The notes beneath the pieces are model-generated. The model was not told the origin of the DNA and searched no databases. It saw only the letters and a list, made by a program, of their open reading frames with translations. A stretch of 64,000 nt of DNA from Microthyrium microscopicum (Eukaryota > Ascomycota > Dothideomycetes > Microthyriales > Microthyriaceae): positions 998,070-1,062,069 of the forward strand of contig MU004236.1 of the NCBI GenBank assembly GCA_010405405.1, in the 5' to 3' direction. Every line of letters starts with the position of its first letter. The first letter of the stretch is position 1. The translations under genes and the position numbers were made by a program. Below are positions 43,302-46,418 of the stretch, in pieces.

Positions 43302-45051
43302 ATGACAGACCAGAACGCTGCTACACGAGATTACGACTACTTTTCCAGTGAGGACGACGACACGGAGCCTCCAGATGAGGAGGGAAAGCTTCTAAATAAA
43401 AGCTTGGAGGCCGATGGCGGAAAGAAATTCGTGAGTATATCAAAGTCAAATGTTGACCGCTTATTGACATGAAAGTAGACGCAGATAAAGAAGTCAAGCA
43501 GGTATTCTATACCTAAGATTCCCAAGTCAAGATCGGTTGTAGCTAACAGAAAGCAAAGAAGGAAGCCCAGTAACAGACCATGTAAGCTTGTGATTGAAAC
43601 TAATTGGACTTGTTATACTGACCATTGATCGCAGTTCGGAAATGGCACAGAACTGGCCGCACGAGTCGGAAAAAGAGTTCTGACAATGGACTCGCCTTTT
43701 CAATTCGCCATGTATTTTCTCGATCATGGCTCAATGTGCTACTCATATTTGTACCATTTGGCATTGCAGCCCATATGTCGGGCGTCAAGAACCGAACCAT
43801 CACCTTTGCACTGAATGCAATTGCCATCATTCCATTGACCGGGCTTTTGACATATGCTACTGAAAATGTGGCGCAGTATGTGGGTGTTGGATTGGGCTCT
43901 CTGCTCAATATCACCTTCGGTAATCTGGTTGAGCTGGTGATCTTGTAAGTCTCTGCCAATATCAGAATGAAACTACGATACTAACTTGCGGCAGGGTGTA
44001 AGTCGAACTAGTTCAAATCCCATCGCAAAACTAATCATCTTATAGCTTCATGTTGAGAGAAGGACATCTCAGAATTGTCCTAGCCTCCTTAATTGGATCT
44101 ATATTCGTCAATCTACTTTTCATTCTCGGTCTAGCAATCATGTCCGCCGGCGTAAGAGGCGCGGAGCAAGTCTACAACCAGAAAACAACCCAAACACTCA
44201 TAGTGTTCATGACAACAGGAATGCTAAGCCTGTTGATTCCTGTAAGTCAAATGTTCGAACGGATGTCTGTATCATACTGACCTAATTAGACATCACTACA
44301 CGCATGTGTCAAATCAGCCAAACTCGCTGATGCTGTCACTCTCAAATTTAGTCGTGGCCTCTCTATCACTCTCTTAATCGTATACATTATGTTCCTGAAC
44401 TTCCAAATCCGCGCCTCCGATCCGGCAGCTGAAGAGCTACCTTACACCAATGTCCCTGGCACCTCCGACGAAGAGACGGCCATTGACATCGAAATGAACC
44501 GCATATCAGCAACTCGCATCAAACCAGCACCACCATCCGCTAAAGCTGCCAACAAGCCTGAACACCAAATCAGCAAAACCCTCTCCTTGGTCGTCCTCCT
44601 CATCTCTGCTGGCATGGTGTCGTTCTGTGCAGAATTCATGGTCGATTCTATTGAGCATGTTATCGCGGACGCCCCACTCACTGAAGCTTTCCTTGGACTC
44701 ATTATACTCCCGCTCCTTGGAAACGTCGCGGAACTTGCTACAGCCGTGACCGTTGCTGTCAAGCAGAAGATGGATCTCGCTATCAACGTGACAGTTGGCT
44801 CAGCTATACAAATCTCCCTCTTTATGGCACCAACTGTTGTCCTCCTCGGCTGGGCCACAGGCCGTGACCTGTCGCTCTACTTCGACATGTTTCAAACCGT
44901 CACGCTGCTGGCGACCATGCTGATCGTGAACATCATGCTATTCACAGGTCGATGCAATTACCTAATAGGCGTGTTACTGTGCGCATGTTATGTTATGATT
45001 GGAACAGGCGCGTTTTTCTTACCAAATCAGCACGGATGGAAAGTTGTTTAG
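43302..45051 (+). CDS. Vacuolar Ca2+/H+ exchanger (CAX, Vcx1-like), with tiny exons
   Basis: Pumps cytosolic Ca2+ into the vacuole in exchange for protons. Seven exons inferred: 43302-43430, 43479-43501 (23 bases), 43550-43581 (32 bases), 43635-43944, 43995-43997 (3 bases), 44046-44241, 44290-45051; every intron is 48-53 bases; 484 residues. The N terminus is acidic (YDYFSSEDDDTEPPDEE) then basic. The two exchanger repeats carry GNLVELVI (Glu near residue 161) and GNVAELATAVTVAVKQ (Glu near residue 379), separated by an acidic loop (TSDEETAIDIEMN). The 3-base exon gives ELVILVFMLREGHLRIV, which has the usual spacing from VEL to the LRIV/IRIV segment; skipping it gives one residue less. Convergent with the isochorismatase gene, stops 53 bases apart. 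Confidence 0.92.
43995..43997 (+). other. 3-base microexon GGT in the CAX gene
   Basis: Lies between the acceptor GCGGCAG and the donor GTAAGT. The flanking introns (43945-43994, 50 bases; 43998-44045, 48 bases) have this genome's usual length, and each has its own branch-like motif (ACTAAC 9 bases before the first acceptor, ACTAAT in the second). A single intron across would be 101 bases, about twice the local norm. Confidence 0.7.
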
Positions 45052-45104
45052 AAACATTTGCATTAGCGGCATTAGATCATAGTAACGTATTTCTTAATCA
45101 AACA

Positions 45105-45711
45105 TCATGGATACCACTGTTCCCAGTCCACGACTTTTGCTCCCTTATCACTGAGCTCTTGCTCAACTTCTCGCTCGATATCGGTAGCAGTTTTGGTTTT
45201 GCCGTTGTATGTTGAATGCGCGCCTTTCAGAATCGTTACCGCGAAGCCTGCATCTAATACGTTCTTGGATGTGCTTAGTACACAGCATTCGCTTTGAATG
45301 CCACATATTACGATGCATTTGATTCCTTGGTCTCGCAGTGTCTTTGCGAGGCTGGGATTGGATTCGAACGCGCCTCTATTTTACATTAATTGATTGCAGC
45401 ACCTATAAATGGAGAGCTCACTCTGTGTTTTTGGCAATGAGCATCTCATCTGCTTGAGGTTGGAAAACCAGCTCCCATGGTTCCGTGTCCTTGACCAGAG
45501 GGCCACTCTCAGGTTTCTCCTCGTGCTGAACAAAAGCAATCAGCCAGTCAGGCTTATGGCCATCGGCAACAGCTTGAGCATTGGCGGCGCGAGCATTGTC
45601 CAAGATCTTTGAAGCCGCATCACAGACACGTTGGGCATCTGGTATTCGAGTTTCCGGAATGGCGGCCAGATCCTTTTGAATGTCGATAACGAAGAGTGCA
45701 CAGGAAGGCAT
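45105..45711 (-). CDS. Isochorismatase-family cysteine hydrolase
   Basis: A small cytosolic hydrolase of the isochorismatase/nicotinamidase fold. Two exons: 45422-45711 and 45105-45375, intron 46 bases, 186 residues. The probable catalytic triad is Asp10 in LFVIDIQKD, Lys94 in LIAKNTEGAF and Cys128 in GIQSECCV. The splice join gives MLIAKNTEGAFESNPSLAK, as expected for the family. The exact substrate cannot be told: it lacks the extra domain of siderophore-type isochorismatases, and I cannot separate nicotinamidase-like from ureidomalonase-like or other members. It starts MPSCALFVIDIQKD with no targeting signal. It is convergent with the Ca2+ exchanger gene. Confidence 0.9.
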
Positions 45712-46418
45712 ATTGAATCCAGTGGGGTGTCTGTAGATTTCAGAAGTATGTCAGTATCAGTGCTATAGCTTAGAAACATCGCGATGGAAGGTGAGGGGCC
45801 AGCTCGCCAAGCAGGCTCCAGACACGAAAGCGGAGCGCTGTCACGAGAATTGGCATGGGTGGTCGAGATGTTGTAGGGGTCACAAAATGGTCACATAGAA
45901 AGCAGGAATGATTCAATCTTCATGCATTGCACTAGAGATCCCGCGCCAAGCCCATATTCGTATATCTTACGCATTCCCACATGACTGTCAAACTTTTCCT
46001 GCCTATGTGCCCATGGTTCAACCAGAACCGTGGTGAGCCATCCCCCATAAAATCAAAAAGAGCAAAGACACAGCCTTTGCTGGACGCCATGGTATGCCTG
46101 TTTGCCGATCGTATTCATAATGCCGTTAAAAATGCTGTTGCCGATCCCATGAATGCCGGTTTCCAATTCCTAATAATAACAAAACACAAAACTGACGCCG
46201 TGGGTTTAAAGTATTGTACAAAGAGGGTGTTGTGAGTTTCCAAGAGTATGAGTTGAGACTGATTAGCCAAGTATTCAGTAACAACTGTCGAGAGAGAGTA
46301 GCGTTGCGGACTATTGCTATTGATTGAGCGTACTGAACATATCGAGTAACGCTACATTAGCGTTGAATGACACATAGTATGTGAGAAGACAGCCGTCAAA
46401 ACTGTAAGCGGAGGGTCG
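45712..46418. other. Intergenic region
   Basis: Upstream of the isochorismatase-family gene and downstream of the basic disordered-protein gene. An open frame of 84 codons at 45981-46235 shows no motif and is probably not a gene. Confidence 0.45.

Follow-up and report, generated by a model that had tools for sequence, protein, structure and literature searches.

Does the 101-nt spacer that interrupts a transporter gene of Microthyrium microscopicum contain an exon of only three bases? The gene lies in assembly GCA_010405405.1 (contig MU004236.1, 998,070-1,062,069, forward strand), in a stretch of 64,000 nt that we call the window. A preliminary description had divided the spacer into introns of 50 and 48 nt around the bases GGT, and we recovered the same division letter for letter (43945-44045), with both donors reading GTAAGT, the acceptors CGGCAG and TTATAG, and one CTAAY site in each intron. 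The window gene is very probably a fast-evolving Vcx1/CAX-type exchanger with an internal 3-nt exon, GGT, between two normal short introns, and its mature transcripts would mainly include GGT.

The exchanger gene and its spacer

Its predicted protein places the window gene among the Vcx1/CAX Ca2+/H+ exchangers. The form containing GGT scores 274.5 bits with the cax model TIGR00378, above the curated cut-off of 211.15, and 263.1 bits with the superfamily model TIGR00846, under its cut-off of 317.45. Its best PDB match is a vacuolar calcium ion transporter (4k1c, E 6e-76), which we take to be yeast Vcx1. The first repeat motif is present as GNLVE, and a forward-frame scan for GNxxE hit only the loci of the window gene and L005. 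Queries of the genome with the family model and with the protein of the window gene revealed further exchanger genes; of these, L033, L034 and L035 recur below. The features around the spacer are as follows (slashes mark splice junctions):

43919..43944, + strand: end of exon 4 in the numbering of the preliminary description, from the GN motif to ...GTG ATC TT; its frame agrees with GNAVELIV of Vcx1
43945..43994, + strand: intron of 50 nt, phase 2 (GTAAGT...CTAAC...CGGCAG)
43981..43985, + strand: branch-like site CTAAC, the sole YTRAY match within the 50-nt intron
43995..43997, + strand: candidate 3-nt exon GGT, read TT/G GT/C (Leu-Val); supported by the 21-residue spacing, spliced alignment to yeast Vcx1 and a CAT counterpart at L033 839-841
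43998..44045, + strand: intron of 48 nt, phase 2 (GTAAGT...CTAAT...TTATAG)
44031..44035, + strand: branch-like site CTAAT, the sole YTRAY match within that 48-nt intron
44046..44241, + strand: exon 6, starting CTTCATG, from spliced alignment
44242..44289, + strand: intron of 48 nt, phase 0, at a position matching an L033 intron
44290..45052, + strand: exon 7, including the stop codon

GGT completes one codon with its first base and opens the following codon with its other two, just past the GNxxE motif. The predicted mRNA junction is ...GTGATCTT-GGT-CTTCATG... with inclusion and ...GTGATCTT-CTTCATG... with skipping, and the corresponding proteins read GNLVELVILVFMLREGHLRIV and GNLVELVIFFMLREGHLRIV. 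With CGGCAG/GGT/GTAAGT, the three bases have complete splice sites on both sides, as an ultra-short internal microexon (30 nt or less) should. Retention of either flanking intron brings in a stop at once. The frame is kept with or without GGT, at the cost of one residue on skipping, exactly as had been described, so that frame alone cannot decide inclusion.

The spacer was also correctly said to be twice the local intron length. Introns that are not next to a 3-nt exon measure 46-53 nt in the four exchanger genes (n = 12; the weak donor GTTCGT occurs in two of them, both from L033), a count that leaves out five weak-donor 'introns' of 96-306 nt placed by the aligner in the unalignable central loop and a 123-nt L033 intron that flanks the 3-nt exon of that gene. 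Were the spacer a single 101-nt intron and GGT never used, the protein would be one residue shorter and read VIFFML in place of VILVFML. Such an intron would keep the frame and have a good donor and a good acceptor, but would be about twice as long as the 12 comparable introns. Alternatively, the 101-nt block could be one stwintron, that is, nested twin introns with no exon kept. Its size of two intron lengths is that of stwintrons, which are described as numerous in some fungi in the part of the literature available to us. In a stwintron, however, the internal intron interrupts the outer donor, branch or acceptor; in the block, the outer donor and acceptor are uninterrupted, each of the two sub-introns is complete in its consensus sites, and GGT stays behind once both are removed. 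We regard this possibility as next to negligible.

Other features of the neighbourhood were seen in passing. The N-terminal part of the gene seems, by eye, to use more tiny exons (43479-43501, ~23 nt; ~43550-43583, ~34 nt), which fall in a poorly conserved basic tail. On the minus strand, 45105-45750 holds frames with an intron near 45400 that presumably read like an isochorismatase-type hydrolase.

Protein spacing and chance expectation

To compare the possible readings, we enumerated GT-AG, GC-AG and AT-AC introns of 40-160 nt over 43919-44090. After removal of those with early stops, 334 combinations were testable (57 one-intron, 277 two-intron). Only five keep the frame through REGHLRIV, and a single one, the 50/GGT/48 reading, gives a spacing of 21 residues from GNxxE to RIV. 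Alternatives with AT-AC or GC-AG introns at the spacer were rejected or ranked low by this enumeration.

The claim that GGT yields the usual family spacing was borne out as well: with these 21 residues, the region aligns without a gap to all four matching PDB sequences (4k1c, 9vsa, 9vsc and 4kjr), the gap-free partners including Vcx1, AtCAX1 and YfkE. When GGT is omitted, a one-residue gap opens in three alignments (4k1c, 9vsc and 9vsa) among the matches listed. Omission lowers the score against Vcx1 from 259.3 to 254.9 bits, that of Pfam Na_Ca_ex from 119.3 to 113.0, that of TIGR00378 to 270.1 and that of TIGR00846 to 258.7, and leaves NF007895 and NF008005 at the same score. Inclusion thus gives the conserved protein reading expected of a microexon, with the exception of TIGR00367, the sole model favouring the skipped form (64.3 with GGT, 67.5 without) and hence a point for a single 101-nt intron. 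As expected for one residue, all these differences are small, which makes spacing the better test. In the stretch aligned to the 21 Vcx1 residues, 62 of 80 prokaryotic relatives (bacterial or archaeal loci; the best 80 of 577) are gap-free and the remaining 18 carry insertions of 9, 12 or 14 residues; the eight of these longer relatives that were listed are archaeal. A deletion was found in none of the 80, and a single 101-nt intron would remove a residue that none of these best 80 of 577 lacks. No fungal orthologues were found in the viral-contig scan.

How easily would such a site arise by chance? We shuffled the spacer of the window gene and that of L033 20,000 times each, keeping the donor and the last 20 nt fixed and the dinucleotide composition of the rest; the two sets test the same position separately. 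The pattern YAG-NNN-GTRNGT with both introns of at least 44 nt appeared in 6 of 20,000 window shuffles and 27 of 20,000 L033 shuffles, and a stricter version (GT[AG][AT]GT plus CTRAY upstream of the internal acceptor) in 3 and 7 of 20,000, respectively. Bare AG-NNN-GT sites are not rare by chance (579 of 20,000 for the window, 2,985 of 20,000 for L033). The absence of a stop codon is uninformative here, because TT+NNN+C cannot form one.

Genome-wide, the strict splice pattern, which would miss L033 because its second intron is too long, gave eight matches against four in a reversed control and thus no sign that the genome is rich in 3-nt exons. Four of the eight seem to be copies of a single AT-rich repeat, as far as the matched letters tell, and three were judged by eye not to be 3-nt exons, which leaves only the window locus as convincing. 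The repeat-like matches (L043, L044, L048 and L049) are closely similar and lie on contigs C5, C7, C16 and C17.

We also built a small custom spliced aligner with yeast Vcx1 protein as query, whose splice weights were set by hand after the finding had been seen. It placed both 3-nt exons, GGT in the window gene and CAT in L033, unforced; in the local region it kept both at intron penalties from -5 to -20 and dropped both at -22, -25 and -30.

A second three-base exon in the sister gene

The decisive support, which the preliminary description did not have, comes from the paralogue L033 (contig C2, from 3229500), where the homologous exon ends ATT ATT TT and is followed by:

785-838: intron of 54 nt, from enumeration and spliced alignment
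839-841: candidate 3-nt exon CAT, with the same codons and phases as GGT
842-964: intron of 123 nt with weak branch-like sites only, more than twice the neighbouring introns
965-980: exon of 16 nt, CATTGCACTTGTGAAG, the second tiny exon of L033
981-1028: intron of 48 nt

With CAT, the predicted junction is ...ATTATTTT-CAT-CATTGCA... and the protein reads GNAVELIIFIIALVKNEIRIV, again with 21 residues; without CAT it has one residue fewer. The enumeration for L033 comprised 9,354 combinations (52 one-, 1,572 two- and 7,730 three-intron), of which 229 keep the frame and 15, all with three introns, give 21 residues. Among these 15, the CAT reading alone keeps the flanks GNAVELII and ALVKNEIRIV, a filter that we imposed ourselves. 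This half of the parallel is less tidy because the second intron is 123 nt long with weak branch-like sites only, and no nested intron was found inside it by eye. The 21-residue spacing is shared by L034 and L035; in L037 and L038 it is, by eye, about two residues longer. For the more distant paralogues L036-L041, alignment to the N-terminal portions of the proteins of the window gene and L033 placed no 3-nt exon; in this comparison L041 hardly aligned and L036 has a stop in the aligned part.

The candidate exon is conserved between the window gene and L033, in the same place and with the same phases. On the Vcx1 chain, the intron pair of either gene maps to residues 115 and 116, each intron lying within its residue in phase 2, and the two genes have a third intron in common after residue 181 (phase 0; the L033 donor is the weak GTTCGT). 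Neither L034 nor L035 carries an intron at these two residues; a nearby intron of L034 lies after residue 113, in phase 0. A single 101-nt intron in the window gene would turn the CAT site of L033 into a coincidence, and we consider that reading very unlikely. Since the sister gene appears to have one at the same place, the 3-nt exon looks genuine, inherited and easy to overlook.

In a 13-row tree (five genes from this genome, with L037 as the only distant paralogue, Vcx1, and seven of the 80 prokaryotic loci), the window gene and L033 come out as sisters with support of 99/98; five of its ten inner branches are open, and the rows bact_L124 and L037p have long branches. Given this sister relation, their common ancestor most likely carried the intron pair before the split, with bases that are now GGT in one and CAT in the other. 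The simplest history consistent with these sequences would be one origin of the pair before the split, after which the three bases diverged and the spacing stayed; an older origin followed by loss in L034 and L035 is possible. Tandem duplication of one intron was rejected as the origin, since introns 1 and 2 of the window gene are no more alike than shuffled sequences (566 of 1000 shuffles reach the score; 304 of 1000 for the L033 pair).

The window gene has a branch of 1.25, against 0.16 for L033. At 44719-44736 its second GN motif reads GNVAEL, whereas Vcx1 and the spliced models of L033, L034 and L035 built here read GNAAEH, so that Leu replaces the His that follows the second-motif Glu. 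This Leu and the long branch suggest that ion or proton handling may have changed in the window copy.

Might the exon be regulated instead of constitutive? As a regulated cassette, it would be present in one form and absent in another, the single residue near GNxxE tuning the exchanger. Either product stays in frame, the two competing donors of the window gene are identical (GTAAGT), and both sister genes have the exon site. Precedents exist in fungi in the portions of the sources at hand: a regulated microexon (PMC11121469) and a short exon beside a stwintron that is skipped in rtnA of Aspergillus niger and Neurospora crassa (PMC6616335). The introns of the window gene and L033, however, are alike only at chance level (222 and 148 of 1000 shuffles reach the score), so no conserved regulatory element is seen, and shortening a core helix by one residue would probably damage the protein. 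We consider a regulated cassette unlikely. A broader version, in which the sister pair has kept an old single-residue splice switch because it is regulated and skipping alters exchanger activity, is improbable in our estimate.

Splicing of the exon, precedents and meaning

At 46-53 nt, the 12 comparable introns fall in the size range in which recognition of the whole intron as a unit is generally assumed for fungi. For the constitutive exon favoured here, each flanking intron would probably be recognised by intron definition, and the two would probably be removed one after the other, an order that we infer because, on three bases, the first acceptor and the U1 site of the second intron (GGT/GTAAGT) overlap. 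Skipping would give an in-frame protein one residue short.

The preliminary description overstated its case in calling three bases close to the physical limit for splicing. One-nucleotide exons have been published, as far as the accessible text of the respective papers goes, in Arabidopsis APC11 (PMC4674806), plant VPS55 (PMC8831610) and CYP621A P450 genes of Fusarium (PMC12940212), and for this reason we group the window exon with the known ultra-short exons. The accessible parts of two further reports describe a 3-bp micro-exon in Drosophila homothorax (PMC7392893) and a 20-nt microexon in Xlr2 of Trichoderma virens (PMC11121469).

Among the close parallels, judging from what is available of PMC12940212, is CYP621A: it also comes from a filamentous fungus, its intron block is more than twice the normal length and that of the window gene similarly long, its ultra-short exon was inferred from restored conserved protein spacing, and the AG/G exon start is alike. 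In CYP621A, however, the exon has 1 nt, its omission breaks the frame, the comparison covered 20 orthologues, and the exon is confirmed by RNA reads; the candidate exon of the window gene has 3 nt, its omission keeps the frame, and it is backed by one paralogue. The available portions on APC11 and VPS55 (PMC4674806, PMC8831610) likewise describe extremely short internal coding exons in a conserved position, although these are 1 nt long, transcript-validated and from plants, whereas the window exon is 3 nt long and fungal. The homothorax exon matches it in length and, unlike it as described here, belongs to an animal gene and is alternatively spliced with isoform-specific functions (PMC7392893, in part). 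As partially available, the Xlr2 report (PMC11121469) likewise concerns a filamentous ascomycete and an exon missed by annotation and conserved among relatives; that microexon is longer, glucose-dependent, located in a transcription factor and supported by RNA-seq. In titles and abstract openings of open-licence PMC papers, no 3-nt exon in a CAX/VCX or other fungal nuclear gene was found among the matches listed, which include two papers on fungal mitochondria that contain the terms (PMC12308204, PMC8208691). On the predicted gene structures, the 3-nt exon is well supported, and ultra-short exons as such were already known.

Gene finders and read aligners often miss very small exons, according to the available parts of two of these papers (PMC12940212, PMC8831610). 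As a model without GGT is still in frame, such a mistake in the annotation would go unnoticed, leaving a transporter that lacks one residue of a conserved stretch. That two paralogues have a candidate 3-nt exon at the same place, with different letters, suggests that exons of this size can survive the duplication of a gene and extensive divergence of its protein. The two genes would form a natural pair for testing how intron definition deals with an exon that leaves no room for two spliceosomes at the same time.
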